From positions 1 through 48,613 of the forward strand of contig JAUWQY010000011.1 in the NCBI GenBank assembly GCA_030610855.1: a stretch of 48,613 nt of DNA, read 5' to 3'. Under the pieces are notes generated by a model, which saw nothing but the letters and a program-made list of their open reading frames with translations, was not told where the DNA came from and did no database searches. The translations under genes and the position numbers were made by a program. Below, one piece after another: positions 4,111 through 42,198 of the stretch. How positions within the stretch are numbered: position 1 is the stretch's first letter; every line of letters begins with the position of its first letter. This stretch comes from Dehalococcoidia bacterium. Lineage in GTDB: Bacteria; Chloroflexota; Dehalococcoidia; GIF9; AB-539-J10.

Positions 4111-5255
4111 ACTTAGAGGACATTATTCAGAAGACCAAGACTTACTATTGCCTGGAGTGCGGCAAGTGCACAAGCATATGTCCCGTCGCTAGATATGATT
4201 CAGGGTTCTCTCCGCGGATGATTATTGAGCATGCCCTTCTGGGCTTTGAGGATGACTTGGTTCAGAACAAGAAACTCTTTTCCTGCCTGACCTGCTATAC
4301 CTGCCAGCCGGAATGTCCCAGTGATGTTGACTTTCCCGTCTTCGTGCGTGAAGCAAGGAGCATAGCGCAGGACAACGGGCAATACGGTATCTGTGCTCAC
4401 TCCGGACAACTGCAGTCTCTGGCGAGGCTCATGACAAGCCCCGCTATCAAGCAGAACAGACTGGAATGGCTTTCCAAGGAGTACCGCGTTTCAGAAGACA
4501 GTGACGTCCTTCTCTGGGTGGGGTGTGCCCCCTATTTCGAGCCCATCTTTGAGGACCTGGAGTTCAGTGCTCTCGACATAATCAGGGCGAGCCTCAAGAT
4601 CATGAACCTGTTGGGAATCGAGCCCAAGCTACTTCCTAATGAGCGGTGCTGCGGTCATGATGCACTCTGGACTGGCGACGTCGAGACATTTAAGAGACTG
4701 GCTGAGCACAATGCCACACAGATCAAGGAGGCAAAGGTCAAGAAGATAGTCTTTTCCTGTCCCGAGGGTTATCGCACATTCAAACTGGACTACCCCAACC
4801 ATGTCGACCTGGGTTGTGAAGTACAGCATCTTTCTGAATTCTTGGCCGAGAAGATGGGGCAAAACGGACTGAAGTTTAAGGAGATCAAGAAGAAGGTCAC
4901 CTATCAGGACCCTTGCAGGTTAGGAAGGCACTTAGGCGTCTATGATGCCCCGCGGAAGGTGCTTGAGTCGATTCCTGGCATAGAACTGATTGAGATGAAA
5001 CACAGCGGACGGGAGTCCATTTGCTGCGGCACCAGTGCCTTTACTAATTGCGACTCGTATTCCAATTTGCTGAGAGCTGAGAGGTTATCTGAGGCCGCGG
5101 CCACGGGAGCAGACGTGCTCATAACTGCCTGTCCTAAATGCCAGACCCATTTTAGATGCGCCATGACGGACAAAGGGGAGGAGCATCGACCAACTCCGAA
5201 GATTGAGATTATGGATCTGGCAAACCTGGTAGCAGATGCCATTGGAGAGGAATAA
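4107..5255 (+). CDS. hdrD: HdrC-HdrB fusion (HdrD-like) disulfide reductase subunit
   Basis: A 382-residue protein that joins HdrC and HdrB, the parts carrying electrons to, and catalysing, disulfide reduction. Residues 1-95 are HdrC-like with two 4Fe-4S motifs (CLECGKCTSICP, CLTCYTCQPECP). Two CCG domains follow, WVGC...CCGHDALW and DPCRLGRH...CCGTSAF...CPKC, which in HdrB hold the non-cubane clusters. The start is GTG at 4107, overlapping the mvhD stop. The last base of its stop codon is the first base of the next start. Methanogen HdrD is also an HdrC-HdrB fusion but sits with a membrane cytochrome, which is absent here. The native disulfide is unknown in a bacterium lacking coenzymes M and B. 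Confidence 0.9.
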   Translation: MNLEDIIQKTKTYYCLECGKCTSICPVARYDSGFSPRMIIEHALLGFEDDLVQNKKLFSCLTCYTCQPECPSDVDFPVFVREARSIAQDNGQYGICAHSGQLQSLARLMTSPAIKQNRLEWLSKEYRVSEDSDVLLWVGCAPYFEPIFEDLEFSALDIIRASLKIMNLLGIEPKLLPNERCCGHDALWTGDVETFKRLAEHNATQIKEAKVKKIVFSCPEGYRTFKLDYPNHVDLGCEVQHLSEFLAEKMGQNGLKFKEIKKKVTYQDPCRLGRHLGVYDAPRKVLESIPGIELIEMKHSGRESICCGTSAFTNCDSYSNLLRAERLSEAAATGADVLITACPKCQTHFRCAMTDKGEEHRPTPKIEIMDLANLVADAIGEE

Positions 5256-7987: not shown

Positions 7988-7988
7988 A

Positions 7989-9668: not shown

Positions 9669-9920
9669 GGGAATTATGACGACTAATGCCGATTACCATG
9701 GTTCCGGAACAGGCGGTTACTGAGTTATCTTCGGTTTGTCTACGACCAGGTACTTACTGCCCCATAGTTGACTGCATGAATCAGATTGGTTCTCCTTCCC
9801 CGGTAGGTGGAAATCAGAGGGGAGTTGGCGGAGTGCACCCCAACACTAACCCTGAACCCTCCCTCAACGGAGAGGAATCTTGTGCGAGATTATGCCGGCG
9901 GACGTAACTAGAAAGCGACT
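9669..9920. other. 252-base gap inside the Hdr locus with a degenerate palindromic repeat
   Basis: The gap separates the first and second Hdr gene sets. A 73-codon open frame at 9686-9907 has no family likeness and no convincing ribosome binding site, so I do not call it. Around 9833-9880 the sequence AACCCTCCCTCAACGGAGAG resembles a worn copy of the CCCTAACCC/CTCCC-loop-GGGAG palindromic repeats spread through many bacterial genomes. A related copy lies at 36420-36450. A TTGACT occurs at 9767 but I see no good -10 behind it, so a promoter here is possible but unproven. Confidence 0.4.
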
Positions 9921-9926
9921 GTGCAT

Positions 9927-11915
9927 ATGGAAGATGAGAAGAGGATCGGAGTCTACATCTGTCACTGTGGGCTGAACATCGCCGGCACGGTTGACGTGGA
10001 AGAGCTAGCGCAATATGCTGCTGCGTTGCCTAACGTAGTGGTCTCCCGTGACTATCGGTATCTATGCTCGGATCCCGGGCAGGACCTTCTTAAGAATGAT
10101 ATCAAGGAACTGGGGCTCAATCGGGTCGTCGTCGCCTCTTGTTCGCCAAGAATGCATGAACATACCTTCCGCAAAGCTTGTCAGGCTGCCGGTTTGAACC
10201 CTTATCTATATGAGCATGCCAATATCAGGGAGCATTGTTCATGGGTGCATGCCGATAAGGAGCAGGCTACCCAGAAAGCCAAGGACCTGCTTCGGGCTGC
10301 TGTGCAACGTGTTCACTATCATGAGCCTCTGGAGGTTAGAGAGGTACCGGTCAATCCTAACACTCTGGTTGTGGGTGCCGGCATTGCCGGTATAGAGGCG
10401 GCCCTGAAGATAGCCAACGGGGGCCACAAGGTGTACTTAGTGGAGAAAGAGGCATCAATTGGCGGGCATATGATTCAACTCGATACTACTTTTCCCACCC
10501 TTGATTGCTCTGAATGTATTATGACCCCTAAGATGAGCGAAGTAGGGCATCATCCCAATATCGAGCTTCTGGCTTATAGCGAGGTGGAGGAGGTATCGGG
10601 GTCTGTGGGCAACTTCAAGGTAAAAGTAAGGAAGAAGGCGAGATATGTGGATGAAGACAAGTGTATTGGATGCGGTATTTGTGAGCAAAAATGCCCCTGG
10701 AAGGTGCCAAGCGAGTTCGAAGTGGGCCTGGGAAAGAGGGGGGCCGTTTATATTCCTTTTGCTCAAGCCATTCCCAATATCGCCACAATAGACAAAGACC
10801 ACTGTGTCTATATCCAGTCGGAGGGAAAGAAATGCGGCGCCTGTATCAAGTTCTGTGACGCTGGGGCCATAGATTTCGAGCAGAGGGACCAGATCGTTGA
10901 GTTAGAAGCAGGTGCCATTATCCTCGCTACAGGATATGATGTTTTCGACCCGAGTCAGATACCTCAATATGGCTACCGGAAATACGATAACGTCATCACC
11001 GCTCTTGAATTTGAGAGGATGACCTGTGCCTCGGGACCGACTTCGGGGACAATCCGGCTTAAAGATGGGAAAACACCCCGGAGCGCGGCTATCATTCATT
11101 GCGTTGGCAGCCGCGATAAGAACTACTGTGAGTACTGCTCCAGAATCTGCTGCATGTATGCACTGAAACACGCTCATCATCTCAAGGAGAAAACAAATGC
11201 CGATGTCTATGGACTGTATATCGATATGCGCTGCACGGGGGATGGTTATGAGGAGTTCTATAAGCGTGTTTCCGAGGAAGGTGTCATCTTCATAAAAGGT
11301 AAGGTAGCTAATGTGACTGATAGGGCCATTACGGAGGAAGAGAAGGGAAAACTGGTCGTGATAGCCGAGGATACCCTACTGGGGAAGATGATGCGCATCC
11401 CCGTGGATATGGTTATTCTATGTCCCGCCATGATACCCCGGTCTGATGCTACGGATGTCGCCAGGAAGTTCTCCATCACTCAGAAAGCGACTGGTTTCTT
11501 TCTGGAACGTCATGCCAAGCTTGAGCCTCAAGCTACAGCCGTAGACGGGATATTCATCGCGGGTTGCTGCCAGTTTCCCAAGGACATTCCTGACTCTGTA
11601 TCTCACGGGAGGGCCGCGGCTGCGGCTGCGCTGGAACTAATAGATAAAGGCAGTGTTACAACTGAGGCCGCAATATCCTGTGTGGATGAGACTCTATGCC
11701 ATGGCTGTGGAATATGCGAGGAAATCTGTGAATTTCAGGCTCCCAGGGTGGTGCTCAAAGATGGGAAGAGGGTATCCACAGTAAATGAGGCGTTGTGCAA
11801 GGGGTGCGGTGTCTGTGCTGTGGCCTGTCCTAGCGGAGCGATGTCCATAAAGCACTTCACCCGTGATGAGATAGCTACCATGATCGAGGCGCTGACTGCG
11901 GTAGAAAATGGCTGA
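9927..11915 (+). CDS. hdrA: HdrA, heterodisulfide reductase subunit A (uninterrupted form)
   Basis: A full-length ordinary HdrA of 662 residues. It has the N-terminal domain (GVYICHCG), FAD site TLVVGAGIAGIE near 150, DCSEC, CIGCGICEQKC near 246, KCGACIKFC near 303, and the C-terminal ferredoxin pair CHGCGICEEIC and CKGCGVCAVAC. It is close to the 296-3679 protein over its whole length but lacks the GltD-like insertion. The sequence passes straight from IPNIATID to the KKCGACIKFCDAGAIDFEQ stretch. A GTG lies two codons earlier at 9921, but the ATG at 9927 matches the start of the paralog better. It overlaps the next gene by 8 bases. It should hold the bifurcating FAD and pass electrons between ferredoxin, the MvhD domain and HdrB. 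Confidence 0.93.
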   Translation: MEDEKRIGVYICHCGLNIAGTVDVEELAQYAAALPNVVVSRDYRYLCSDPGQDLLKNDIKELGLNRVVVASCSPRMHEHTFRKACQAAGLNPYLYEHANIREHCSWVHADKEQATQKAKDLLRAAVQRVHYHEPLEVREVPVNPNTLVVGAGIAGIEAALKIANGGHKVYLVEKEASIGGHMIQLDTTFPTLDCSECIMTPKMSEVGHHPNIELLAYSEVEEVSGSVGNFKVKVRKKARYVDEDKCIGCGICEQKCPWKVPSEFEVGLGKRGAVYIPFAQAIPNIATIDKDHCVYIQSEGKKCGACIKFCDAGAIDFEQRDQIVELEAGAIILATGYDVFDPSQIPQYGYRKYDNVITALEFERMTCASGPTSGTIRLKDGKTPRSAAIIHCVGSRDKNYCEYCSRICCMYALKHAHHLKEKTNADVYGLYIDMRCTGDGYEEFYKRVSEEGVIFIKGKVANVTDRAITEEEKGKLVVIAEDTLLGKMMRIPVDMVILCPAMIPRSDATDVARKFSITQKATGFFLERHAKLEPQATAVDGIFIAGCCQFPKDIPDSVSHGRAAAAAALELIDKGSVTTEAAISCVDETLCHGCGICEEICEFQAPRVVLKDGKRVSTVNEALCKGCGVCAVACPSGAMSIKHFTRDEIATMIEALTAVENG

Positions 11916-13491
11916 ATTTGAACCTCGTATTATCGCTTTTGCCTGCAACTGGTGCACGTATGCGGCAGCAGATATAGCTGGCACAAGCCGTATCCAGTAC
12001 CCTCCCAATGTAAGAATCATAAGGGTTATGTGCAGCGGCATGGTGGCTCCCGAGCATATTTCCCTGGCGCTTGAGAATGGGGCTGACGGCGTTTTGGTGG
12101 CCGGTTGTCATCCTGGAGACTGTCACTATATTTCGGGCAACTTAAAGGCGGACGAGAGGTTCCAGATGGTCAGCAAGGTGGTCAGCATCCTCGGTGTTGA
12201 GAGCCAAAGGGTAAGGCTTAAGTGGATAGCCACGTCGGAAGGACCGGTATTTGCCCAGACTATCAAAGACATGGTAAACGAGCTCAAGGAATTGGGCCCT
12301 TCGCCCTTCAAGGAATCTCGATCAGCTGACCGAGCAAGACCTGCTCTCGCGCTAGAGGACATGCTTCAGGAAACCAAGGCTTACTACTGTCTGGAGTGTA
12401 GCAAATGCACCAGCATATGTCCCGTGGCCAGGTATGATCCGTCCTACTCTCCGCGAGCTATGATTGAGAACGCTGTGTTGGGGTTGGGAAGTGAGAATAT
12501 TCATGATAAGAAGCTCTTCTCTTGTCTTGCTTGTTATGCCTGCTCTCTGAGATGTCCCAGTGACGTTGACTATCCGGCTTTCATGCGGAGGACTAGAGAG
12601 ATGGCCTTTCGGAGTGGTGAGTATGGCTGTCCGGCTCACGGTGGCTTCCTGCACTCCGTCACACGGCTCATGTCAAGGTCCCCTTATAAGCAGAAGAGAC
12701 TGGGATGGCTTACTGGGAAATACAAAGTCTCTGACCAGAGCGATACAATGTTCTTCGTCGGGTGCACCCCTTATTTTGAACCTATTTTCGGGTATCTGGG
12801 GGTGAGAGCACTCGACATCACAGAGGCAAGTCTGAAGATACTCAACAGTTCGGGAGTGGAGCCCATGTTACTTGCGGATGAAAAATGCTGCGGACACGAT
12901 GCGCTGTGGACTGGCGATACAGAGACCTTTCAGAGGCTGGCCGGGCACAATACAAAGCTAATCAAAGAGGCCGGAACAAAGAAAATCGTATTCTCGTGTC
13001 CTGAGGGTTATCGGACACTTAAGCTGGACTATCCTGCGCACGGGTTTGAACTTGGCTGTGAATTGCAGCATATTTCCGAGTTTGCAGCCGAGAAGATAGA
13101 GAAGGGGGAATTGAAATTCAAGGAGTTCAGCAAGAAGGTAACTTACCAGGACCCATGCCGATTAGGGAGACATCTGGGCGTCTATGACTCGCCGAGAAAA
13201 GTGCTTGAGGCTATTCCCGGGTTAGAGTTGATCGAGATGGAGAAGAATAGAGAATGCGCTCTTTGCTGCGGGACGAGCGCTTTCACCAACTGCGGTCTGT
13301 ACTCTCATGAGATGAGGGTGGATCGATTGCGCGAAGCAGAAGCCAGTGGTGCTGAAATCCTGGTGACTAGCTGCCCGAAGTGCCAGGTGCACTTTGAATG
13401 TGCCATGAATAACAGGAGTGAGGAAAAGGGCCCTGATATAGACATCGAGGTAGTGGACCTGGCGAACCTTGTGGCGGGTGCTTTAGCATAA
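11908..13491 (+). CDS. MvhD-HdrC-HdrB triple fusion
   Basis: A 527-residue single chain. Residues 1-135 are MvhD (FACNWCTYAAADIAGTSR, MCSGM, AGCHPGDCHY). A short linker follows, then HdrC-like 4Fe-4S motifs (CLECSKCTSICP near 161, CLACYACSLRC near 206) and two HdrB CCG domains (CCGHDALW near 328, CCGTSAF near 453, then CPKC). It matches, end to end, the two overlapping genes at 3682-5255. It starts 8 bases inside the HdrA gene before it. Fusing the electron entry subunit to the disulfide reductase subunit fixes their stoichiometry at one to one. A gap of 49 bases separates it from nfnA. The family is clear; the physiological disulfide is not known. Confidence 0.92.
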   Translation: MAEFEPRIIAFACNWCTYAAADIAGTSRIQYPPNVRIIRVMCSGMVAPEHISLALENGADGVLVAGCHPGDCHYISGNLKADERFQMVSKVVSILGVESQRVRLKWIATSEGPVFAQTIKDMVNELKELGPSPFKESRSADRARPALALEDMLQETKAYYCLECSKCTSICPVARYDPSYSPRAMIENAVLGLGSENIHDKKLFSCLACYACSLRCPSDVDYPAFMRRTREMAFRSGEYGCPAHGGFLHSVTRLMSRSPYKQKRLGWLTGKYKVSDQSDTMFFVGCTPYFEPIFGYLGVRALDITEASLKILNSSGVEPMLLADEKCCGHDALWTGDTETFQRLAGHNTKLIKEAGTKKIVFSCPEGYRTLKLDYPAHGFELGCELQHISEFAAEKIEKGELKFKEFSKKVTYQDPCRLGRHLGVYDSPRKVLEAIPGLELIEMEKNRECALCCGTSAFTNCGLYSHEMRVDRLREAEASGAEILVTSCPKCQVHFECAMNNRSEEKGPDIDIEVVDLANLVAGALA

Positions 13492-13540
13492 GAGTAGTCT
13501 AGTATCTCAGGGTCAAGAAGCAGAGTTCTGGAGGCTGATA

Positions 13541-14419
13541 ATGTACAAAATAGTGAAGAAGGAGGTTCTTGTACCCAACACAGTTTACCTTAAAGCAGAG
13601 GCTCCGGAGATTGCCCGCAAGGCTGAACCGGGGCAGTTCGTAATATTGCGGGTGGATGAGGTTGGGGAGAGGTTCCCTTTGTCGCTCGCTGGTTGGGATA
13701 AGAAGGCAGGGACGCTCGAAGTCCTCTTTCTTATCATGGGCAGAAGCACGATGAAACTCTCCGCTCTTGGAGAGGGCGACTGTATTAGGGATATAGTGGG
13801 CCCCCTGGGTAGGCCCACGGAAATCGAATCCTACGGCGACACTCTGTGTGTCTGTAGCACATTTGGTGTCGGTCCCATGATACCGCTGATCAAGGCTCTC
13901 AAGAAGAAAGGCAACAAGGTCACGTCAGTCATGGAAGCAAAAGACGAGGCCTTTCTATTCTGGGAGGATAGGTTGAAGAGCGTGAGCGATGAGACACACG
14001 TGGTTCTGGGAGATGGGAGTCGCGGGGAATACAGGCGGGCGAGCGAGTTCCTCACAAAGCACCTGAAATCGGGGAACAAGGTTGACAGGGTCTTTGCGTT
14101 CGGGCGCGTATTTATGATGATGGAATGTTCACAGGCGACAAAGCCGTTTGGGGTCAAGACGATTGTTGGTCTCACTCCGATAATGGTTGATGGTACAGGC
14201 ATGTGCGGCTGCTGCCGGGTCTCTGTGGGTGGCGAAACGAAGTTTACCTGTGTTGATGGTCCTGAATTCGATGGCCATTCGGTGGACTGGGGACTCCTCG
14301 TCAAGCGGAAACGAGCTTATTTGAGAGAAGAGGCGCTCGCATTTGATCTATGGCAACTTGATAAATTGCGTCGGATCGCCGAATTATCGGAACTGCCCGG
14401 GCGGGTCTCTGTGGTGTGA
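13541..14419 (+). CDS. nfnA: NfnA/SudB-type FAD, NAD-binding and [2Fe-2S] subunit
   Basis: A 292-residue protein of the dihydroorotate-dehydrogenase electron-transfer (PyrK)/NfnA/SudB family. It has an N-terminal FAD-binding barrel (GQFVILRV, FPLSLAG), a nucleotide-binding middle (STFGVGPMIPLIKAL), and a C-terminal [2Fe-2S] motif GMCGCCRVSVGG with a last cysteine in FTCVDGPEF. With the next gene it forms the NfnAB pair, which bifurcates electrons from NADPH to NAD+ and ferredoxin, or runs in reverse. The same pair is also described as sulfide dehydrogenase SudAB, and sequence alone does not separate the two roles. It overlaps the next gene by 4 bases. Confidence 0.88.
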   Translation: MYKIVKKEVLVPNTVYLKAEAPEIARKAEPGQFVILRVDEVGERFPLSLAGWDKKAGTLEVLFLIMGRSTMKLSALGEGDCIRDIVGPLGRPTEIESYGDTLCVCSTFGVGPMIPLIKALKKKGNKVTSVMEAKDEAFLFWEDRLKSVSDETHVVLGDGSRGEYRRASEFLTKHLKSGNKVDRVFAFGRVFMMMECSQATKPFGVKTIVGLTPIMVDGTGMCGCCRVSVGGETKFTCVDGPEFDGHSVDWGLLVKRKRAYLREEALAFDLWQLDKLRRIAELSELPGRVSVV

Positions 14420-15834
14420 AAATGACGGAAAAACCAAAACTGAATTTGAATCGTGTGCCGATACCGAAGCAGGCTCCGGAAGCGAGAAGAGAGAACTTCA
14501 GTGAAGTAGCCCTGGGATATGCCGAAGAGCAGGCTCTTGAAGAAGCCAGTCGTTGCATTGACTGCAAGAAACCCGGCTGCAAGGACGGTTGCCCGGTTTA
14601 TGTAGACATTCCCGGGTTCATAAAGGCAATACAGAATGGCGATATGCCTGAGGCGGTAAGGATACTCAAGAGCAAGAACAGCCTGCCCGGAATCTGCGGT
14701 CGTGTTTGCCCTCAGGAAACACAGTGCGAGCTGACCTGTAACCTGGCCAAGAAGGATGCGCCCATTGCTATCGGCAGGCTGGAGCGCTATGTAGCTGATT
14801 GGGAAATAGCTCACCCGGAAGCTATTAGACGAGGAGAGGAGGGGGTGAACTGCAATGGCAGGAGGGTGGCCGTTGTCGGTTCCGGTCCGGCAGGACTAAC
14901 CTGCGCCGCCGACCTGGCCAGGTTGGGATATGAAGCCGTTATCTTTGAGGCACTTCATGTTGCTGGTGGAGTACTCATGTATGGCATCCCCGAGTTCAGG
15001 TTGCCCAAGACGATCGTTCAGGGTGAGGTTGATTATGTCAAATCACTGGGCGTGGAAATCAGACTCAACCATGTGATCGGCAAAATAGCTACCGTCGATG
15101 AGCTTCTGGAAAACGGATTTGATGCTGTCTTCTTGGCTCCCGGGGCCGGGGCGCCAATGTTCCTGGATATACCCGGGGAGAACCTGAGCGGCATATACTC
15201 TGCCAACGAGTTCCTTACTCGGACAAACCTGATGAAAGCATATCTCTTTCCTCAGTATGATACTCCGATACAGGTGGGAAAACGGGTGGCAGTGTTCGGT
15301 GCCGGAAACGTAGCTATGGATGCCTCAAGATGTGCACTGAGACTTGGGGCAGAAGAAGTATACATTGTCTATCGGCGCTCCAGGACGGAGATGCCTGCCA
15401 GACTTGAAGAGAGGGAAAATGCTGAAGAGGAGGGAGTCATTTTCAAGCTTTTGACCAATCCGAGCAGGTTTCTTGGTGATCAACGAAGTATAGTCAGGGC
15501 GGTGCAGTTACATGAAATGGAACTGGGTGAGCCTGATGCTAGTGGTCGGCGACGGCCTATCCGAAAGCCGGACTCTGAGTTCATGATGGAGATAGATACC
15601 GCGATTCCCGCTCTGGGCACAAGGCCTAATCCCATCATTCCCTCAACGACCAAAGGGCTTGAACTCACTAAGTGGGGCACCGTACTGACCGATGAGGCCA
15701 CCGGTAGAACAAGCAAAGAGAGAGTCTGGTGTGGCGGAGATATGGCTACTGGGGCAGCTACCGTTATCAGCGCCATGGGAGCAGCACGGCGAGCAGCTAT
15801 CTCAATTGACATCTACTTAAAGGGGGGCAACTGA
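14416..15834 (+). CDS. nfnB: NfnB/SudA, GltD-like NADPH-binding subunit
   Basis: A 472-residue protein of the NADPH-dependent glutamate synthase small-chain family, the NfnB partner of the preceding gene. The N-terminal cysteine domain (CIDCKKPGCKDGCP, CGRVCPQETQCELTC) holds two 4Fe-4S clusters. The FAD site is VAVVGSGPAGLTCAAD near 154, and the NADPH site VAVFGAGNVAMDASRC near 293 is followed by the family stretch YIVYRRSRTEMPAR. No glutamine amidotransferase large subunit is nearby, so a role in glutamate synthesis is unlikely. The start may be GTG 14416 or ATG 14422. It is the free-standing form of the module inserted in the HdrA-like proteins at 296 and 5255. Confidence 0.9.
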   Translation: MKMTEKPKLNLNRVPIPKQAPEARRENFSEVALGYAEEQALEEASRCIDCKKPGCKDGCPVYVDIPGFIKAIQNGDMPEAVRILKSKNSLPGICGRVCPQETQCELTCNLAKKDAPIAIGRLERYVADWEIAHPEAIRRGEEGVNCNGRRVAVVGSGPAGLTCAADLARLGYEAVIFEALHVAGGVLMYGIPEFRLPKTIVQGEVDYVKSLGVEIRLNHVIGKIATVDELLENGFDAVFLAPGAGAPMFLDIPGENLSGIYSANEFLTRTNLMKAYLFPQYDTPIQVGKRVAVFGAGNVAMDASRCALRLGAEEVYIVYRRSRTEMPARLEERENAEEEGVIFKLLTNPSRFLGDQRSIVRAVQLHEMELGEPDASGRRRPIRKPDSEFMMEIDTAIPALGTRPNPIIPSTTKGLELTKWGTVLTDEATGRTSKERVWCGGDMATGAATVISAMGAARRAAISIDIYLKGGN

Positions 15835-15901
15835 GCGGGGCGTTCGGTAATCTGGATTGGCAGAAGATGAAGGGCACGGTAAAAATGCCAGCTAGGAACG
15901 C

Positions 15902-15930
15902 TTGCCTCTTCTCGGTGTATGTGCTATGCT
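15902..15930 (+). promoter_or_regulatory. Candidate promoter for the flx operon
   Basis: TTGCCT at 15902-15907 and TATGCT at 15925-15930 are 17 bases apart, each matching the sigma-70 consensus at four of six positions. Transcription would begin near 15937, before the hairpin at 15960-15982 and flxD at 16003. This is pattern matching only. Confidence 0.35.
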
Positions 15931-15959
15931 GTCGGCGTCATGTTGTCAGGCTGGCAAGC

Positions 15960-15986
15960 AAGGGTGGGCTCGAACCACCCTTTTTG
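15960..15986 (+). terminator. Intrinsic terminator hairpin between nfnB and flxD
   Basis: The 8-base-pair stem AAGGGTGG / CCACCCTT with a 7-base loop is followed at once by further T residues (TTTGTT). It lies 126 bases past nfnB and 17 before flxD. It may end the nfnB transcript. If the promoter at 15902 is real, it may instead act as an attenuator in the flx leader. Confidence 0.65.
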
Positions 15987-16002
15987 TTCACTGGGATGAT
16001 AG

Positions 16003-16416
16003 ATGAACAACTCTGAACCAAAGATAGTAGCTTTCTGCTGCAACTGGTGTTCATATGCGGGTGCTGACCTGGCCGGTACATCAAGAATGCAGTACCCTGC
16101 CAACCTGAGAATAATCAGAGTGATGTGTAGCGGTAGAGTGAATCCCGTTTTTGTCCTCAAGGCGCTTCGTGTTGGCGCTGACGGGGTGCTGGTGCTTGGT
16201 TGCCATCCGGGTGATTGCCACTATCTGACCGGCAACTACCGTACCCGCCGTCGGCTGTCTATCACCATGAAATTCATGGAGTATATGGGAATCGAACCCG
16301 AACGTATACAGGTCAGCTGGTGTTCTGCCTCGGAAGGAAGCAGATTTGCCGAGGTGGTTACCGAAGTAACGGCTGATCTGAAGAGAATAAGCCCCAATCG
16401 ATTATTCAATGACTAG
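16003..16416 (+). CDS. flxD: FlxD, MvhD-type [2Fe-2S] subunit
   Basis: A 137-residue MvhD-family protein (FCCNWCSYAGADLAGTSR, MCSGR, LGCHPGDCHYLTGN), the third such domain in the window. In this place, directly before flxC, flxB and flxA, it fits FlxD, the subunit that hands electrons from the NADH-oxidising Flx part to HdrA. The ribosome binding site GGGATG lies 5 bases before the ATG, just past the terminator-like hairpin. It overlaps flxC by 8 bases. In known flxABCD-hdrABC clusters flxD is last in the group; here it is first. Confidence 0.88.
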   Translation: MNNSEPKIVAFCCNWCSYAGADLAGTSRMQYPANLRIIRVMCSGRVNPVFVLKALRVGADGVLVLGCHPGDCHYLTGNYRTRRRLSITMKFMEYMGIEPERIQVSWCSASEGSRFAEVVTEVTADLKRISPNRLFND

Positions 16417-17371
16417 AGAGATAGAAAAGAAACTACGAGACGCAGTCCGCGAGCTTCTGGAGAAGGGAACGATCGACCGTATTGTCGGCTATGAGGCTGG
16501 GAGCCTCAAATTCTCGACCACTCCGCTGATAACCAGCAACAAAGCTGACGTTGACCGATTGGTTATCAATCCCTTCACTCACAGTAACCTCAGCGTTTTC
16601 CTGCGCGATTTGTGCGGCAAAGTGGGCATTGTTGCTAAAGGATGCGACGCCCGCTCTATCATCAGCCTTATCCAGGACAGACAGATTGCTCGCAAGGATG
16701 TCTTCGTTATCGGTGCCCCCTGTGGCGGCGTCATCGACCTGGCCAAAGTGGAAAAACTGACCGGTCTGGATCGGGATGAGGTTGATGATATCGTCTGGCA
16801 GGGAGAAAAGGCGGCCATCACCTTCGCCGGGAGCACCCAGAAGTTCTCGGCCAAGGAAGTGCTGGCTGATTCTTGTCTTGGCTGTGATCCCTCCGATTTC
16901 AAGGAATGCGATATGCTCATTGGGGAGATCGAACCCATCGTTGGCGGCAAAGAGCTCGGCCAAGACAGGATTAGAGAGATGGAGGCGATGGCTCCGGCGC
17001 AGCGCTGGGAGTTCTGGAAGAAAGAGTTCTCCCGTTGTATCCGGTGCTACGGTTGCCGCCAGGTCTGTCCAGCCTGCTTCTGCGATCGTTGCTTTGTGGA
17101 GGAAACCGAACCACGATGGATATCACCGTTGCCGAAGTGGCAGGATAACCTCATCTTTCAAGTAGTAAGGATGATGCATGTTGCCGGCCGTTGTACCAAT
17201 TGCGGCGAATGTGAGCGTATTTGCCCTGCGAATATCCCGCTGGGAAGTCTCACAAAGAAGATGGAAGAGATTGTGGACGAACTATTTCAATACCGGGCAG
17301 GCACGGACAAAGATGCTCCGCCGCTGATGGCAGCTTATCAACCCGACGAACTCGAAGACTTGATGCGGTAG
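16409..17371 (+). CDS. flxC: FlxC-like ferredoxin-type subunit (FrhB/FdhB-related)
   Basis: A 320-residue iron-sulfur protein. The N-terminal 200 residues resemble the F420-hydrogenase beta-subunit fold (VGIVAKGCDARSIISLIQD, IGAPCGG). The C-terminal part carries cysteine clusters CIRCYGCRQVCPACFC near 210 and CTNCGECERICP near 262. It matches the 4Fe-4S subunit that sits between FlxD and FlxB in Flx and related formate-dehydrogenase-linked clusters. Its role should be electron relay inside the Flx complex. The gene starts inside the end of flxD and is 4 bases from flxB. The name FlxC rests on context, and similar proteins are also annotated as FdhB-like. Confidence 0.75.
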   Translation: MTREIEKKLRDAVRELLEKGTIDRIVGYEAGSLKFSTTPLITSNKADVDRLVINPFTHSNLSVFLRDLCGKVGIVAKGCDARSIISLIQDRQIARKDVFVIGAPCGGVIDLAKVEKLTGLDRDEVDDIVWQGEKAAITFAGSTQKFSAKEVLADSCLGCDPSDFKECDMLIGEIEPIVGGKELGQDRIREMEAMAPAQRWEFWKKEFSRCIRCYGCRQVCPACFCDRCFVEETEPRWISPLPKWQDNLIFQVVRMMHVAGRCTNCGECERICPANIPLGSLTKKMEEIVDELFQYRAGTDKDAPPLMAAYQPDELEDLMR

Positions 17372-17375
17372 ATAC

Positions 17376-18431
17376 ATGAAGAAGATTAAGAAACAGAGCA
17401 TTCCCGAATTGCTTGAAAAATGGCAGAAGGAGTTTGCGGTGTTCGTGCCATCGAAAGCCAGCGGTGTGTCGCAGATGGAGGTCTGGGACGGGCAGGATAC
17501 GGCTTTCCTTAACCGCAACCGTAATACGGCTGTCCCTCCCAAGGAGAAATTCCTCCCCGGCATGGAGAAGATGTTCGGGTTTCGTAAAGAGGAGGGTAGC
17601 TATGTAGTGGAACCGACAGACGGCGAACCTCCTAAGCAGCTTCTCTTCGGCATCCATCCCTGCGATGCCAGGGCGATAGGCATCATCGATATGGTATTCA
17701 AAGATGCCTATGATGATAAATACTATCTCAGCCGCCGTGAGAACACTGTGCTGGTCGGTATGGCCTGTACCAGTCCTTATGACAGTTGTTTCTGCACCTC
17801 GCTAGGCTTTGGCCCGGCCGATGCGATGGATGTCGATATCATGCTGATTGATATTGGAGACGCTTTTCTGATAGAGGAGGTCACCGAAAAGGGCAGAGGG
17901 ATATTAGCGGGAGCGAAGGGTGTTATCGAAGCAACCGAGAAGGATGAGAAGGAGGCCGCAGCGGCCAGGGAATCCGCCAACGCCAAGGTGAGCAGGAAGA
18001 TCGATACCGCTGAGATTAGCAGGCGGCTACCACTTGTGTTTAACGATCGGGAGTTCTGGGAGGAAGTCTCGGCCAAATGCGTGAGTTGCGGAATCTGCAC
18101 TTTTCTTTGTCCTACGTGCTACTGCTTCGATATCAACGACGAGATGCTTCAGGATGGCAGTGGAGCGCGCTACCGTAACTGGGACTGCTGTAGCTTCGCG
18201 ATTTATACCAGGATGCCGGCTGAGAATCCCCGGGAGGAGAAGTGGCGCCGGGTACGTCAGAAGGTATATCACAAGTATCTCTTCTACCCGGAACTATTCA
18301 ATGTTATCGCCTGTACCGGCTGCGGTCGCTGTATCCGGCAGTGTCCGGTGAACTGGGATATTACGCAAACACTGAGCAATCTGCCTGCCGGAAGCCCGGG
18401 GAAGGCAGAGGAGAAAAAGAAAGCATCATGA
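17376..18431 (+). CDS. flxB: FlxB-like 4Fe-4S subunit (AsrA-related)
   Basis: A 351-residue protein of the anaerobic sulfite reductase subunit A/hydrogenase beta family. The N-terminal region includes the family stretch LLFGIHPCDARAIGIIDMVF. The C-terminal region has CVSCGICTFLCPTCYC near 235 and CTGCGRCIRQCPVNWDIT near 313. It relays electrons between the flavin subunit FlxA and the rest of the complex. The ATGA overlap with the next gene shows tight coupling. I considered AsrA, but no siroheme AsrC gene follows and an MvhD precedes, so FlxB is the better reading. Confidence 0.82.
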   Translation: MKKIKKQSIPELLEKWQKEFAVFVPSKASGVSQMEVWDGQDTAFLNRNRNTAVPPKEKFLPGMEKMFGFRKEEGSYVVEPTDGEPPKQLLFGIHPCDARAIGIIDMVFKDAYDDKYYLSRRENTVLVGMACTSPYDSCFCTSLGFGPADAMDVDIMLIDIGDAFLIEEVTEKGRGILAGAKGVIEATEKDEKEAAAARESANAKVSRKIDTAEISRRLPLVFNDREFWEEVSAKCVSCGICTFLCPTCYCFDINDEMLQDGSGARYRNWDCCSFAIYTRMPAENPREEKWRRVRQKVYHKYLFYPELFNVIACTGCGRCIRQCPVNWDITQTLSNLPAGSPGKAEEKKKAS

Positions 18432-19300
18432 CTATCAGCGATATCAGCCACCGCAAGAGATACCTGCCGGAAGGGAATGTTTACCTCCCCCACATCGCGG
18501 TCATAGAGAAGATAATCTATGAGACGCCCAACGTCAAGACCTTTCATTTCAGCTTTAAGGATGAGAAACTCAAGGAGGGATTCACCTTCGAGTCCGGCCA
18601 GTTCGGCGAGTATTCCGTACTTGGAATCGGGGAGGCTACCTTCTGTATGTCCTCCAGTCCTACCCGTCGAGATAACCTGGAGTGTACCGTCGCGCGGGTC
18701 GGTAAGGTCACAAATGCCTTGCACCGGCTGGGTGAAGGGGCGGAGATAGGTTTTCGCGGGCCGTTTGGCAACAGTTTTCCTCTGGACTACATGGCGGGCA
18801 AGAACCTGGTTCTTGTCGCAGGCGGCATAGGTCTGGCGCCGCTACGCTCGCTTATCTGGAATGCGCTCGACAACCGCGCTCAATACGGTAGCATTGACAT
18901 AATATACGGGGCGCGCACTCCTGGAGACCTTTGCTTCAAATATGATCTGGAGAGCTGGGAGAAAGATAGCTCGGTGAACATGACTACCACGGTTGACCGT
19001 GAGGCGCCCGACTGGCAAGGTAACGTCGGCTTCGTGCCCGCCATTACAGAGAAGGTGGCACCCTCGGCCAAGAATGCGGTGGCGATCGTCTGCGGTCCGC
19101 CCATTATGATACGTTTCACCTTTCCCGTGCTGGAGAAACTGGGGTTCACCCCGGCACAGATGATAACCACTCTGGAAAAGAGAATGAAATGCGGCATCGG
19201 CAAATGTGGTCGGTGTAATATCGGGGACATTTACGTCTGCCGGGATGGTCCGGTCTTCAGCTACGAGCAGATCAAGAATTTCAGCTCGGACGAATATTAG
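18428..19300 (+). CDS. flxA: FlxA-like FAD/NAD(H)-binding [2Fe-2S] subunit (AsrB-related)
   Basis: A 290-residue oxidoreductase of the ferredoxin-NADP reductase fold. The FAD part contains ESGQFGEYSVLG and the NAD part LVAGGIGLAPLRSLIW. The C-terminal [2Fe-2S] motif is MKCGIGKCGRCNIGDIYVC near 253. FlxA oxidises NADH for Hdr-linked electron bifurcation. An open frame extends upstream to 18242, but that part lies inside flxB in another frame. The ATG at 18428 overlapping the flxB stop is the proper start. It ends the long + strand locus, and moaC lies convergent 141 bases on. Confidence 0.88.
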   Translation: MTISDISHRKRYLPEGNVYLPHIAVIEKIIYETPNVKTFHFSFKDEKLKEGFTFESGQFGEYSVLGIGEATFCMSSSPTRRDNLECTVARVGKVTNALHRLGEGAEIGFRGPFGNSFPLDYMAGKNLVLVAGGIGLAPLRSLIWNALDNRAQYGSIDIIYGARTPGDLCFKYDLESWEKDSSVNMTTTVDREAPDWQGNVGFVPAITEKVAPSAKNAVAIVCGPPIMIRFTFPVLEKLGFTPAQMITTLEKRMKCGIGKCGRCNIGDIYVCRDGPVFSYEQIKNFSSDEY

Positions 19301-19441: not shown

Positions 19442-19906
19442 TTATTCGGTAAGGTGGAAATCGCTCTTGCCTCCGCTCTTCCTTACCAGATGAATTTCTC
19501 CGATGGTCATGCTCTGATCCACTGCCTTGCACATATCATAGATGGTCAGAGCGCTTATAGCCACAGCAACCAGTGCTTCCATTTCGAATCCCGTCTTTCC
19601 TATCCCTTTGGCGCTGGCGGTGATCTCGACTCCGATGAAGTCGGAGCCATTTCCAGGGATGTTGAACTCAACGGCAATGCTGGTGAGATGTAGAGGGTGG
19701 CAGAGCGGTATGAGACGGTGAGTTTCTTTTGCGGCCATGATTCCGGCCGTTTTAGCCACGGCCAAGACATCTCCTTTCTCTAGCTCCCCTCTACGGATAA
19801 GCTCTAAGGTAGCGGGCTTCATCTGCACCTTGCCTCTAGCTACGGCGCGGCGTTCCGTTTCTTTCTTGTTAGTAACGTCTATCATGTGAATTTGCCCTAG
19901 CTCCAT
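19442..19906 (-). CDS. moaC: MoaC, cyclic pyranopterin monophosphate synthase
   Basis: A 154-residue MoaC, which converts the MoaA product 3',8-cyclo-dihydro-GTP to cyclic pyranopterin monophosphate, the first stable intermediate of the molybdenum/tungsten cofactor. Visible signatures are IPLCHPLHLTS and SAKGIGKTGFEMEALVAV. GGAGG stands 7 bases before the ATG at 19906, only 2 bases past the moaA stop. It is the last gene of the tup-moa operon. Confidence 0.96.
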   Translation of the reverse strand: MELGQIHMIDVTNKKETERRAVARGKVQMKPATLELIRRGELEKGDVLAVAKTAGIMAAKETHRLIPLCHPLHLTSIAVEFNIPGNGSDFIGVEITASAKGIGKTGFEMEALVAVAISALTIYDMCKAVDQSMTIGEIHLVRKSGGKSDFHLTE

Positions 19907-19908: not shown

Positions 19909-20922
19909 CTAGCCTCCGATCTGCGACATTTTTCGGTTCATAGCTCCCCTTCGCCCTCTTGCCCTAAGGGGGGCAGCATCGCCTCCCTCGAGGTCATGAT
20001 GCTCCTGCTTAGAAGCAACGGCCTTTAGAATCAGGCGTTCTAGCTCCGCCGGTGGAGCACTGTTGCGTAGCGGCGTTTTCAGGTCAATCTCATCTTCGGA
20101 CAGAAGGCAGGGTCGTAGTCTGCCATCGGGACTGAGGCGGATGCGGTTACACCTGGAACAAAAGGAAGGCTCGGTGCGGGGACTGATGAAGCCTATAGTG
20201 CCCCTGGCCCCGGCTAATCGGTAGTAGCTAGCAGGTCCGTTGCCAGTTATCCCGGTTCCGTCTGGACAGGGTTCAAGCCTGCCGAGCAAACCGACATGTT
20301 CTCGTAGTTCAGCGGAGGGCACGAACTCCACACCACCGCTAAATGGCATAAGCTCGATGAATCGGACATGCCATTCCTCCGTAAGGGTCATCCTGGCGAA
20401 ATCCAGTATCTCCTCATCGTTCATGCCTCGCATAATCACAACGTTTGTTTTGACCGGGTTGAGGCCAGCATCTCTCGCCGCCTCAATACCCTCAAGAACG
20501 TCTCCCAGTTCTCCAAGACGTGTTATGTCACGGAATTTATCGGCCTTGAGCGTATCCAGGCTGACATTAACTCTGGTCAAGCCTGCCTGCCTAAGTTCCG
20601 GGGCACTTCTCTTGAGAAACGTCCCATTTGTCGTCAACGATAGTTCTTCAATTCCTTCGGTCTCAGATAGCATCTTAATCAGCCTGGGTAATTCGGCTCT
20701 AACCAGGGGCTCGCCGCCGGTGAGCCGTATCCTGTTGATGCCGACCCCTGCCGCTGCCCGGACAACAGCCCGAATCTCTTCGTAGGAGAGAATCTCGCTC
20801 TGGGGTATTAAGGGGACACCTCCTGGTGGCATGCAATAGATGCAGCGCAGATTACAGCGGTCGGTAACAGAAATGCGGAGGTAATCTATGCTCCGTCCGA
20901 AAGAATCAAGAATTCCGCTCAT
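19909..20922 (-). CDS. moaA: MoaA, GTP 3',8-cyclase (radical SAM)
   Basis: A 337-residue radical SAM enzyme that starts molybdopterin synthesis. The SAM-binding cluster motif is CNLRCIYCMPPGG near residue 22. The second, substrate-binding cluster is CSRCNRIRLSPDGRLRPC near 254. The chain ends in the IGG tail typical of MoaA, whose final two glycines are needed for activity. It overlaps the ABC ATPase gene by 4 bases. No moaB, mogA, moeA, moaD or moaE is in the window, so the pathway must be completed elsewhere. Confidence 0.96.
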   Translation of the reverse strand: MSGILDSFGRSIDYLRISVTDRCNLRCIYCMPPGGVPLIPQSEILSYEEIRAVVRAAAGVGINRIRLTGGEPLVRAELPRLIKMLSETEGIEELSLTTNGTFLKRSAPELRQAGLTRVNVSLDTLKADKFRDITRLGELGDVLEGIEAARDAGLNPVKTNVVIMRGMNDEEILDFARMTLTEEWHVRFIELMPFSGGVEFVPSAELREHVGLLGRLEPCPDGTGITGNGPASYYRLAGARGTIGFISPRTEPSFCSRCNRIRLSPDGRLRPCLLSEDEIDLKTPLRNSAPPAELERLILKAVASKQEHHDLEGGDAAPLRARGRRGAMNRKMSQIGG

Positions 20923-22031
20923 CGGCTGGCGTTCCTCTCCATAATATGTACTGCCGTGGCCTTGAAGTCGGCGTAAACTTCACTGCCCTCCTGTAAGTTC
21001 AACTCCTCTGCTGATACTCTGGTGACCAGGGCCACGAGACGGAAGCCGCAGTCGATTTGCACGCGGCTAAGGGGGCCATTAGATGCCACCCGCGCAACTC
21101 TGCCTTGCAGGGAATTCCTGGCCGAACTCCGATGCATCATCGGAGCTAAAGTGATATCCTCAGGCCTGATGCAAGCATACACTTCCTGTCGTGCCGGGTA
21201 GTTAGAGACTGCCTGTATCCCGATTCCATCAGGGTTGCTACCTACGCTTACCGTGGCTATACCTTCGTTGTTGGCAACTACTACCCCTTCTATGATGTTC
21301 TCCATACCAACAAAATGAGCCACCTCCTCGTTCCGGGGTGAACGGAATATGTCGGTGGCATTGCCTGTTTGGAGGAGTGTGCCGTCAATGAGCACCCCTA
21401 TCCTGTCAGCGAGTTGCTGCCCTTGAGCCATATCATGCGTTGCCATTATCATGGTAGTGTTATGTCGCCTGGCAACGTCCCCAATCAAGTGCTCAATCTT
21501 TGCTGTGGAAACCGGGTCAAGATTAGCTGTCGGCTCATCCAATAACAATACTTCGGGTTCTAGCACCAGAGCCCTGGCCAAAGCTACTCTCTGTGCCTCC
21601 CCGCCGGAAAGTGTGCGGGCGTCTCTACTATCGTAGCCTTCTAATCCAACGGTTTCCAGAATGCCGTCGACTTTCTCGGCAATCCTGTCCCTTTCCTCTC
21701 CCCTCCACCTTAAGCCGCAGGCAACGTTGTCATAGACACTCGAATTGAAGACCTGAGGTTTCTGGTGAATGAATGACATCCGACGGCGTATCTCCAATCT
21801 TTGTTTCCCCGACCGGGGAACGCATATGCCATCGAAATAGATTTCCCCCGAGCCAGGAGTTTCCAGAAGGTCTATGATACGTAGAAGCGTTGTTTTGCCC
21901 GCTCCGGTAGGGCCGATCAAGGCGAAAACTTCACCCCTTGCAATGCTCAAGTTGAGGCCTTTCAATATCTCCTTCCCACCATAGCTATGGGTCAGATCAG
22001 CCACTTCGATCATTGAAGATAAGGAGTTCAT
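20919..22031 (-). CDS. tupC: Tungstate/molybdate ABC transporter ATP-binding protein
   Basis: An ABC ATPase of about 370 residues with Walker A GPTGAGKTT, signature LSGGEAQRVALARAL and Walker B VLLLDEPTANLDP. A C-terminal TOBE-like regulatory domain follows from about residue 290, as in WtpC/ModC. It energises oxyanion uptake through TupB. The open frame begins at 22037, but AGGAG lies right against that codon. The third codon, ATG at 22031, has a properly spaced ribosome binding site, so I start there. Tungstate is favoured over molybdate because of the TupA type of the binding protein; the difference cannot be proved from sequence. Confidence 0.9.
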   Translation of the reverse strand: MNSLSSMIEVADLTHSYGGKEILKGLNLSIARGEVFALIGPTGAGKTTLLRIIDLLETPGSGEIYFDGICVPRSGKQRLEIRRRMSFIHQKPQVFNSSVYDNVACGLRWRGEERDRIAEKVDGILETVGLEGYDSRDARTLSGGEAQRVALARALVLEPEVLLLDEPTANLDPVSTAKIEHLIGDVARRHNTTMIMATHDMAQGQQLADRIGVLIDGTLLQTGNATDIFRSPRNEEVAHFVGMENIIEGVVVANNEGIATVSVGSNPDGIGIQAVSNYPARQEVYACIRPEDITLAPMMHRSSARNSLQGRVARVASNGPLSRVQIDCGFRLVALVTRVSAEELNLQEGSEVYADFKATAVHIMERNASR

Positions 22032-22033
22032 TA

Positions 22034-22723
22034 TCATCTCCTCTGCTGTAGCCTGTTCAAGACGATGTTGATGACGAGTGCCAGGAACAGAAGAATGATG
22101 CCCAGCGCCAGAGCCATTTCTAGTTCACCTCTGGTTGTCGCCAGCGAGAGGGCTGTAGTCATCACCCTGGTAAACCCTCGTATATTGCCGCCGACCATCA
22201 TGGCAACCCCGAGCTCTGACAGGGCTCTACCGAAGCCCAGTATAAGTGCGGCCAGAACGGCATATCTTGCTTCTCTTAGTACAAGCAGCACGAGTTGAAA
22301 GCCGCTGGCGCCAAGCGAGGTAGCTGTCTCTACAACCTCTTTGCTTACTCCGCTCAAAGCCGAAATGGTCAAGCCAAGCAATATAGGTGTGATGAGTATC
22401 ATCTGGCCAATCACCATGGCAGCGGGAGTAAAGAGTATGCCAAGCTCACCGAGCGGTCCGGCCCGGGAAAGGAGTACGAAAACGAACAGGCCAACGATCA
22501 CGGTGGGTACGCTGAATAATGTCTGGATGATATTTATTAAGACCCTTTTTCCATGGAACCGACGGAAGTGTATCAAGCTCGCCAGTGGTAGGCTGATAAG
22601 AGAGGCCAGAAGACAAGAGGTCCCCGCGATCCTCAAGGTCCTTGCGGCTATCTCCATGACCTCGGGGTCGAAGGAGATTATGAGTTCCATGGCCTTGGTA
22701 AGGCCGTACCATATTTCAGTCAA
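22034..22723 (-). CDS. tupB: Tungstate/molybdate ABC transporter permease
   Basis: A 229-residue membrane permease with about five hydrophobic segments and the ABC-docking EAA loop around SLGASGFQLVLLVLREARYAV. It pairs with TupA and TupC. The frame opens with a TTG at 22723; an ATG at 22690 is the alternative, neither with a strong ribosome binding site. It ends inside the start region of tupC. The substrate-binding gene lies 76 bases upstream. Confidence 0.9.
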   Translation of the reverse strand: MTEIWYGLTKAMELIISFDPEVMEIAARTLRIAGTSCLLASLISLPLASLIHFRRFHGKRVLINIIQTLFSVPTVIVGLFVFVLLSRAGPLGELGILFTPAAMVIGQMILITPILLGLTISALSGVSKEVVETATSLGASGFQLVLLVLREARYAVLAALILGFGRALSELGVAMMVGGNIRGFTRVMTTALSLATTRGELEMALALGIILLFLALVINIVLNRLQQRR

Positions 22724-22799: not shown

Positions 22800-23690
22800 C
22801 TACTCTTCCGGTTCTGCGCCGGCACAGGGAATAAATAACGGCACGCCATACTCCTCGACTCCATAATTACCAATAAGCTCCTGTATCTCAGGCGAGATAA
22901 GAAAAGCCACGAGGTTATTTGCCATCTCAAGGTCAGTTCCAGGATGCTTTTCCGGATTTATGGCAATAACAGAGTAAACGTTAAGCAATAGCTCTCCCGT
23001 TTCTACCAGGGGCACCAGGGCCAAGCCACCCTTATAGGCCAGGAAAGTGCCACTATCGGTTAGCGTATAAGCGTTCATCTCATTGGTCATCAGCAGGGTC
23101 GGCCCCATTCCGCTTCCCACCTCTGCATAGCCTTCTCTAGCCTGAGCCCAACTGGATTCTTGCACGGTGGCATAGGCAAAGCCGGCTGCTCGCCAGATAT
23201 CCTTCTCCTTAGCATGAGTTCCGGAATCATCTCCCCGGGAAACAAATCTGATTCGATCTGGGTCTTCTGATCCCTCTTCCATCAATTTCTTGCAGGCATC
23301 TTCTGGGGTAAGCCCCTTGATACCTGCGGGGTCATCGGGCGGACCTACGATGAGGAAATAGTTATAGGCAAAAGGAACTCGTTCCACACCGTAGCCGTCC
23401 GCTACAAACTGTAGCTCACGAGCTTTGTCGTGAATGGCGACAGCATGTACATCTCCCCTTTTGCCATATTCAAGAGCTATGCCGGTGCCAGCATAGAGAA
23501 TATGGAGTTTCACACCATATTTCTCCTCGAATCTGGGCTGCAGATATCCCCACAAGCCAGTGTCGTAAAGGCTGGAAGTGGTAGCCACCTTCAAGGCAGG
23601 AACACGTGCCATTAGGATGATGCTAACGATAATGGCAATCGCTATTACAGCCAGTGCGATCACTTTCGTCTTGATACTCATCTTCCTCAT
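22800..23690 (-). CDS. tupA: Tungstate/molybdate-binding protein TupA
   Basis: A solute-binding protein of about 296 residues. An N-terminal hydrophobic segment (VIALAVIAIAIIVSIILMA) serves as signal or anchor. The mature start LKVATTSSLYDTGLWGYL matches the TupA/PBP-like family, whose TTS stretch binds tungstate, and it lacks a lipobox. The open frame runs 24 codons further up; I start at ATG 23690, right before the basic residues of the signal. It is the first gene of the operon and lies behind a promoter, a structured RNA and a terminator. TupA-type proteins usually prefer tungstate, which would suit tungsten enzymes of anaerobes. Confidence 0.9.
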   Translation of the reverse strand: MRKMSIKTKVIALAVIAIAIIVSIILMARVPALKVATTSSLYDTGLWGYLQPRFEEKYGVKLHILYAGTGIALEYGKRGDVHAVAIHDKARELQFVADGYGVERVPFAYNYFLIVGPPDDPAGIKGLTPEDACKKLMEEGSEDPDRIRFVSRGDDSGTHAKEKDIWRAAGFAYATVQESSWAQAREGYAEVGSGMGPTLLMTNEMNAYTLTDSGTFLAYKGGLALVPLVETGELLLNVYSVIAINPEKHPGTDLEMANNLVAFLISPEIQELIGNYGVEEYGVPLFIPCAGAEPEE

Positions 23691-23766: not shown

Positions 23767-23806
23767 CAGGAACAAAAACAGCACCATCACAAAAGCAGTG
23801 CTGTTT
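23767..23806 (-). terminator. Intrinsic terminator in the tup-moa leader
   Basis: On the minus strand the 9-base-pair stem AAACAGCAC / GTGCTGTTT with a 13-base loop runs straight into TTG TTCC, giving a U-rich tail. It lies 16 bases after the structured RNA at 23823-23936 and about 80 bases before tupA, where an attenuator would be expected. Confidence 0.75.
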
Positions 23807-23822
23807 ACAAACTAGACTTCAT

Positions 23823-23936
23823 CCCTCTCCTTTCCAAGCACGGGAGGCATAGATATTTCTGTCTATACCGTCGAGGCTTTTCAGCCCACCGGCTGCTTGC
23901 CATGGATTCTCTTTAGGCAAAACAGCTCGGAGAGAG
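23823..23936 (-). promoter_or_regulatory. Candidate Moco/Tuco riboswitch
   Basis: On the minus strand the region is closed by an 8-base-pair helix, CTCTCTCC (23936-23929) with GGAGAGGG (23830-23823). Inside are three hairpins: TTGCC/GGCAA, CAGCC-GGTG-GGCTG, and the 8-base-pair GGTATAGA/TCTATGCC. The pieces AAGCAGCCGGTGGGCTG, GCCTCCCG and GGAAAGGAG are like those I recall from the Moco RNA motif. Its place before tungstate uptake and moaA/moaC genes fits a molybdenum or tungsten cofactor sensor. Family membership is from memory and not from a covariance search. Confidence 0.6.
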
Positions 23937-23955
23937 CTAGCATTTGATTCCGGGT

Positions 23956-23984
23956 ATCATATCAGGGATTTGCCACCCAGGCAA
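23956..23984 (-). promoter_or_regulatory. Promoter of the tup-moa operon
   Basis: On the minus strand TTGCCT (23984-23979) and TATGAT (23961-23956) are separated by exactly 17 bases. Transcription would begin near 23949, a dozen bases before the riboswitch-like structure. The -35 box lies in one arm of the inverted repeat at 23966-23988. Confidence 0.6.
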
Positions 23985-42126: not shown

Positions 42127-42198
42127 AGCCAGCGGTCGGATTCGAACCGACGACCGGCGGTTTACGAAACCGCTGCTCTACCCCTGAGCTACGCTGGC
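42127..42198 (-). tRNA. tRNA-Thr (anticodon CGT)
   Basis: A complete 72-base cloverleaf on the minus strand: acceptor GCCAGCG/CGCTGGC, D arm GCTC/GAGC, anticodon stem GCGGT/ACCGC with loop TTCGTAA, T arm GTCGG-TTCGAAT-CCGAC, discriminator T. CCA is not encoded. Anticodon CGT reads ACG, threonine. Confidence 0.96.

Follow-up and report, generated by a model that had tools for sequence, protein, structure and literature searches.

The molybdenum and tungsten cofactors (Moco and Tuco) are too labile for routine binding tests. The only guide to Mo/W discrimination in the Moco riboswitch family has been one correlation, reported by Regulski et al. in 2008 (PMC2408646), in which RNAs with the P3 stem precede Moco genes only and RNAs without it precede Tuco genes. 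This P3 rule is still repeated in a 2022 review (PMC9481103); the 2008 survey did not cover Chloroflexota (PMC2408646). The same study names the tetraloop receptor of the Moco RNA and describes the moa RNA of Escherichia coli, which represses when Moco is made, and every comparison of P3 outside Chloroflexota made here rests on it (PMC2408646). Closer to the present locus, a Moco riboswitch before moaA-moaC has been reported in Dehalogenimonas (PMC13390414).

Here we analyse a contig stretch of 48,613 nucleotides from a Dehalococcoidia bacterium, the whole of which is called the window below. A first-pass annotation had proposed on its minus strand a promoter, a Moco/Tuco-like aptamer and a terminator in series before genes for tungstate uptake and for MoaA and MoaC.

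The aptamer and its operon

The predicted aptamer was borne out by a search with RF01055, the Moco/Tuco riboswitch model, which matches positions 23811-23944 (minus strand) over its full length (model 1-135) with 72.1 bits and an E-value of 1.5e-15, twice the curators' cut-off of 36 bits. The source genome (1.63 Mb, 95% complete) has no second RF01055 match. Beyond the aptamer, the window has a single Rfam match, a tRNA gene at 42127-42198 (minus strand). The RNA is closed by an outer helix with three internal hairpins, much as the first-pass annotation had drawn it. P1, assigned from structure and covariation, pairs CTCTCTCC (23929-23936) with GGAGAGGG (23823-23830) on the minus strand, and its 3' strand also holds a Shine-Dalgarno sequence (GGAG). 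Inside P1 lie P2, P3, P4 and a P5 of 2 bp. P2 (23892-23926) carries the receptor for a GAAA tetraloop (CCTAAAG at 23917-23911 and ATGG at 23903-23900), P3 (23874-23887) is the stem GGGCU/AGCCU, and P4 (23846-23869) bears the GAAA tetraloop itself at 23859-23856; P2 and P4 follow from the model together with covariation, and all three are on the minus strand. The hallmarks of the family are present in this RNA, namely P1-P5, the conserved core, the GNRA tetraloop on P4 and its receptor in P2.

Compensatory changes in the helices of relatives, which had been named as a check on the proposal, were found in an alignment of 44 P3-containing relatives: 91.1% of cells are paired, against 81.3% in shuffled and at most 48% in slid alignments, and covariation reaches 0.417, against 0.231 and at most 0.120, respectively. 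Changes on both sides affect 23 of 35 pairs and occur in each of P1-P4; in P3 they involve four of the five pairs, with 93.4% of cells paired. Covariance support is present and the helices are kept upstream of tupA, the two points on which the proposal had been staked. By sequence and modelled structure, the window RNA is confirmed as a member of the established family RF01055 in its P3-containing form.

The operon tupABC-moaA-moaC lies behind the terminator in the predicted order, all on the minus strand. The gene for a tupA-like solute-binding protein (22800-23690) probably starts with the ATG at 23690, the frame being open from a TTG at 23762 as well. It is followed by a tupB permease gene (22034-22723; NF038017, 226.7 bits; NF041773 TupB, 180.7 bits), a gene for a tupC-like ATPase with a TOBE domain (20919-22037; NF040840 WtpC, 305.3 bits; PF03459), moaA (19909-20922; TIGR02666, 357.7 bits, cut-off 284) and moaC (19442-19906; TIGR00581, 191.7 bits, cut-off 141.5). 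The TupA protein scores 163.8 bits against NF041772, under the equivalog cut-off of 400 bits, and its best solved relative is the tungstate-binding protein PDB 3lr1 (E 9e-52). Residues H59, R118, T124, D170 and S12, linked to oxyanion binding in TupA (PMC5517513), are invariant in an alignment of the window protein with 82 relatives. A loose regular-expression check had suggested a loss of binding residues in TupA proteins linked to P3-containing RNAs; proper alignment showed them to be kept, except for T11S in nine rows. This exchange in the oxyanion-binding TTTS motif (TTSS in the window) occurs in 9 of the 83 TupA proteins, all under P3-containing RNAs, and is confined to the TupA clade of the window and to single P3-containing relatives.

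The aptamer stands upstream of genes for Mo/W cofactor synthesis and oxyanion transport, as expected of the family, and it is a well-placed and very probably functional riboswitch with ordinary feedback logic. Of 100 relatives, 57 have an RF01055 match; within the genus, the genome of the window included, matches occur in 18 of 20. Wherever contigs of the genus are long enough, the RNA is followed by tup or wtp genes and then by moaA-moaC. WtpA is found in two of these genomes, where wtp genes replace tup under the same switch; within one genus, two divergent TupA lineages and WtpA have been exchanged under one P3-containing RNA. In one genome bin of the sample (G011), the switch with its tup operon is present in two nearly identical versions on separate contigs (C55 and C155), reflecting either paralogy or strain mixture. 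The other side of the window operon is occupied by a long convergent array on the plus strand (296-19300), which encodes HdrA-like flavin/iron-sulfur proteins, HdrC/HdrB-like proteins and proteins resembling sulfhydrogenase beta and gamma subunits.

Promoter, terminator and possible coupling to the aptamer

The sigma-70-like promoter was found as described, at 23984-23956 on the minus strand: a -35 box TTGCCT, a spacer of 17 nt with an extended TG, and a -10 box TATGAT. The two boxes agree with the consensus at 9 of 12 positions, and 11 nt separate the promoter from the aptamer. Shuffled sequences contain 0.4 such sites per 500 bases by chance; judged by eye, 17 of the 19 genus RNAs have a TA(N3)T -10 box at the equivalent position. 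Downstream, an intrinsic terminator spans 23771-23806 (minus strand), with a stem formed by 23806-23796 and 23786-23776 and a U-run. The stem and U-run stand as first annotated and the count of nine pairs does not: there are 11, including two G-U pairs (-13.1 kcal/mol, z -3.15; none of 200 shuffles equally stable). A terminator is equivalently placed in all 19 RNAs of the genus, and the minimum free-energy fold of the full leader keeps both aptamer and terminator.

How could ligand binding reach this terminator? The first-pass annotation had recognised here the layout of a transcription-attenuating riboswitch, of which promoter, aptamer and conserved terminator hold; antiterminator pairing above chance was not found in the genus. 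In duplex folding of the aptamer against the terminator arm and loop, with 100 shuffles each, none of the 19 genus RNAs ranks with the best 10 of its 100 shuffles, and for the window 38 of 100 shuffles pair equally well. A classical antiterminator, in which the ligand-free RNA would pair GCUGUUU of the P2 5' strand with AAACAGC in the 5' arm of the terminator, is accordingly improbable. It can point to seven Watson-Crick pairs in the window and to five to seven in most leaders of the genus that were inspected, and also to P3-lacking relatives, many of which show aptamer/terminator complementarity that beats nearly all shuffles (0, 0 and 2 of 100 doing as well in G030, L043 and L045). Set against this are not only the shuffles within the genus but also the geometry of the pairing, whose segment shares just two bases with the terminator stem in most congeners, and the need to open P2, which the free-energy minimum leaves folded along with the terminator. 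The same want of pairing above chance could be taken to mean that the terminator stands outside the switch, as a constitutive element or as the ordinary end of upstream transcription (from the L25 gene at 24704-24036). This we regard as very improbable, given that in all 19 RNAs of the genus the terminator follows promoter and aptamer and precedes the genes, and that terminators behind Moco RNAs are already known (PMC2408646). Since it lies between the promoter and aptamer on one side and the genes on the other, no transcript started at this promoter can reach tup without crossing it.

As antiterminator pairing above chance was not found, a ribosome may provide the link instead. Four nucleotides behind the Shine-Dalgarno sequence in P1 begins a possible leader ORF of five codons, ATG AAG TCT AGT TTG TAA (MKSSL*; 23805-23822, minus strand), whose stop touches the 5' arm of the terminator. 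The leader ORF of the genus reads M(K/E)LGFWTAPFL* and ends within the terminator loop; sister genera have longer leader ORFs that reach into the terminator. In most P3-containing RNAs, the 3' strand of P1 likewise carries a Shine-Dalgarno sequence, followed after 4-6 nt by an AUG. From this AUG, the GCA of the terminator arm is reached after 21 nt in the genus and after 24 nt, one codon more, in sister genera. Within the genus, 5 of 19 members have lost the start codon and 14 of 18 keep the stop; a codon permutation test on the leader ORF was not significant, 237 of 1000 permutations being as good. Among order-level relatives with P3-containing RNAs, one family (f2) has seven operons in which the AUG or GUG that follows P1 stands at or near the tupA start, an arrangement like that of E. 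coli that fits sequestration of the Shine-Dalgarno sequence. In another relative (G026; L126:955-1422), a start-less frame right behind P1 reads as the N-terminus of an oxyanion-binding protein, a signal peptide followed by LTIFHAGSLAVPFE. The leader ORF of the relatives may descend from a gene start of this kind. Ribosome-gated attenuation via the P1 Shine-Dalgarno sequence and the tiny ORF is a possible form of coupling.

We consider it likely that this P3-containing member of RF01055 serves as a feedback OFF switch on the tupABC-moaA-moaC operon, acting most likely by premature termination; the OFF direction is proposed by analogy with the E. coli RNA. The leader would be transcribed from the promoter at 23984-23956. 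When a pterin metal cofactor is plentiful, the aptamer would be held folded with P1 closed, the terminator at 23806-23771 would form, and transcription would halt before tupA. When the cofactor is short, RNA polymerase would read through, yielding more oxyanion importer and more cyclic pyranopterin. With less certainty, a ribosome would load at the Shine-Dalgarno sequence of the P1 3' strand only while P1 is open and would then occupy the terminator's 5' arm, and P1 closed by ligand would keep it off the leader AUG. The natural ligand would be a cofactor containing molybdenum, tungsten or either.

P3 as a marker of the metal in Chloroflexota

The window RNA has a genuine, covarying P3, yet the first genes behind it encode a tungstate-type importer, an arrangement that contradicts the split drawn in 2008. 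Of the two features of the Tuco variant it shows the tungsten genes (tupA and tupB being the best models) and not the absence of P3; of those of the Moco variant it has P3, but not the freedom from tungsten genes.

The window is one of many such cases. Among 117 Chloroflexota RNAs that precede tungstate-type importers (tup or wtp), 57 have kept P3. Sorted by first gene, the P3-containing and P3-lacking RNAs collected number 43 and 55 at tup, 14 and 5 at wtp, 8 and 1 at mod, 0 and 4 at AOR and 10 and 6 where moaA or moaC comes first; these counts are not independent, as they comprise near relatives and a tup set gathered with the TupA of the window as query, and therefore establish that there are many exceptions without giving their frequency. 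A phylum-wide sample of 400 genomes gave matches in 52. A model built from the P3-containing set finds Moco RNAs at 55 of 80 tupA loci, most of them without P3. On the TupA tree, where the P3-containing clade of the window is sister to a P3-lacking clade, the P3 state changes at least seven times (five of these forced by well-supported branches), compared with 25 when states are shuffled.

Genus g50, whose genomes are nearly complete and in six cases single contigs, combines both types in a cell. P3-containing RNAs precede tupABC in seven of its genomes, four of these seven also have P3-lacking RNAs before moaA-moaC, and none of the seven contains a ModA over cut-off or an AOR homologue. In a further 34 Chloroflexota genomes, only P3-containing RNAs were found, at tup or wtp, together with an AOR homologue and no ModA. 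We also considered whether P3 state tracks the presence of AOR, with which it shows no correlation, AOR being nearly universal in the genomes tested, and whether operon content might explain it; both P3 types precede tupABC-moaA.

As far as the collected RNAs tell, the old rule holds at its ends, where RNAs of AOR genes lack P3 and those of ModA mostly have it, and fails in the middle. Because of the 57 P3-containing importer RNAs among 117, the seven or more changes of state and the arrangement in g50, P3 as judged from these comparisons is no usable Mo/W marker in Chloroflexota, and labelling such RNAs 'Moco' or 'Wco' from P3 alone is unsafe. The exceptions span tungstate importers across a phylum that had not been surveyed, including genomes that hold both types in the opposite arrangement. 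Cells that pair a P3-containing RNA at tup with a P3-lacking one at moaAC offer a natural starting point for identifying what truly discriminates the two metals.

Other settings of the family were met in the same genomes. P3-containing and P3-lacking RNAs stand in series on one strand in G427 (L249:3627-4135), about 250 nt apart before the gene of an 891-aa CARDB protein, and in G470 (L239), 1.3 kb apart; should P3 matter for ligand choice, these tandems would be natural two-input leaders. In g50, a P3-containing RNA lies upstream of genes for the small and large subunits of a [NiFe] hydrogenase (L252:51-3571), proteins that need neither molybdenum nor tungsten. Moco-family RNAs of both P3 types also precede FecCD permeases (L248, L247) and cobalt-ECF-type permeases (L227, L237, L238), and these FecCD-type and ECF-type transporters are possibly unrecognised Mo/W importers.

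Which cofactor is sensed?

Sequence cannot decide the metal of the ligand, for which the first-pass annotation had considered the tungsten cofactor, because P3 points to Moco and the P3 criterion itself fails in the phylum: either P3-containing RNAs can report the tungsten cofactor, or these cells would use Tup for molybdenum under Moco control. Similarity of formate dehydrogenases to solved enzymes was tried as an indicator and does not separate molybdenum from tungsten.

That the aptamer senses Tuco despite its P3, which then would not be the Mo/W discriminator, is a reading we hold tentatively. It agrees with the control of a Tup-type importer in which all tungstate-site residues are conserved, with a genus whose 20 genomes lack any ModA over cut-off and in 17 cases have homologues of the tungsten-type aldehyde oxidoreductase AOR (PF01314), with the 34 genomes described above, and with the exchange of two divergent TupA lineages and WtpA under one P3-containing switch. 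Against it, no AOR homologue is present in the genome of the window, which is 95% complete, and the best structural relatives of that genome's three formate dehydrogenases include tungsten and molybdenum enzymes alike; moreover, the RNAs linked to AOR (P3-lacking in 4 of 4) and to ModA (P3-containing in 8 of 9) behave as the old rule predicts, and tungstate does not trigger the P3-containing RNA of E. coli (PMC2408646).

The aptamer might equally well follow the P3 rule and sense Moco, with Tup serving in practice as the cell's importer of molybdate or of both oxyanions, a possibility to which we would give less than even weight. Its premise is the assignment of P3-containing RNAs to Moco in 2008 (PMC2408646). 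As the genome of the window has neither ModA nor WtpA, Tup must supply any molybdenum, and TupA does bind molybdate too, with a nanomolar Kd (PMC5517513). The lack of AOR in this genome and in the closed g50 genomes points the same way, as does T11S in the TTTS motif, which in all nine rows accompanies a P3-containing RNA and has a putative effect on Mo/W choice. Harder to reconcile with Moco sensing are the AOR homologues in 17 of 20 congeners, the sister TupA lineages that keep the same binding residues under P3-lacking RNAs, and the P3-lacking type before moaA-moaC in g50, which the rule leaves unexplained. A broader proposal, in which P3-containing aptamers of Chloroflexota would recognise the tungsten cofactor or fail to discriminate and in which the switch of the genus would gate a ribosome at the P1 Shine-Dalgarno sequence, the leader-ORF ribosome holding the terminator open, is rather unlikely. 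If true, it would mean that P3 is not the Mo/W selector it was taken for.

Comparison with known systems

The E. coli moaA-type Moco riboswitch shares with the window P1-P5, the GAAA tetraloop and its receptor, P3, an RBS-like sequence in the P1 3' strand, and moaA and moaC in the operon. The window differs in its host, a member of Chloroflexota, in its first controlled genes, which encode a tungstate-type ABC importer, and in having a terminator and a tiny ORF where E. coli has the moaA start right behind P1. The pairing of a riboswitch with a short upstream ORF recalls the B12 riboswitches of Mycobacterium tuberculosis (PMC11260477), which have another aptamer and whose uORF translation was shown, whereas here translation is proposed from the position of the ORF. 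The P3-lacking Tuco (Wco) variant (PMC2408646) resembles the window in its tungstate transporter and in a genus with tungsten-type enzymes, and many sister lineages have P3-lacking RNAs before tup; the window RNA, however, has a genuine P3 and so does not show the defining feature of that variant. The riboswitch of Dehalogenimonas moaA-moaC (PMC13390414) belongs to the same bacterial class and RNA family, but the g50 RNAs before moaA-moaC lack P3, whereas that of the window contains it and precedes tupABC. What this RNA adds to a routine annotation is that, on the comparisons made here, it is one of the natural exceptions that remove P3 as a ligand marker in the phylum.
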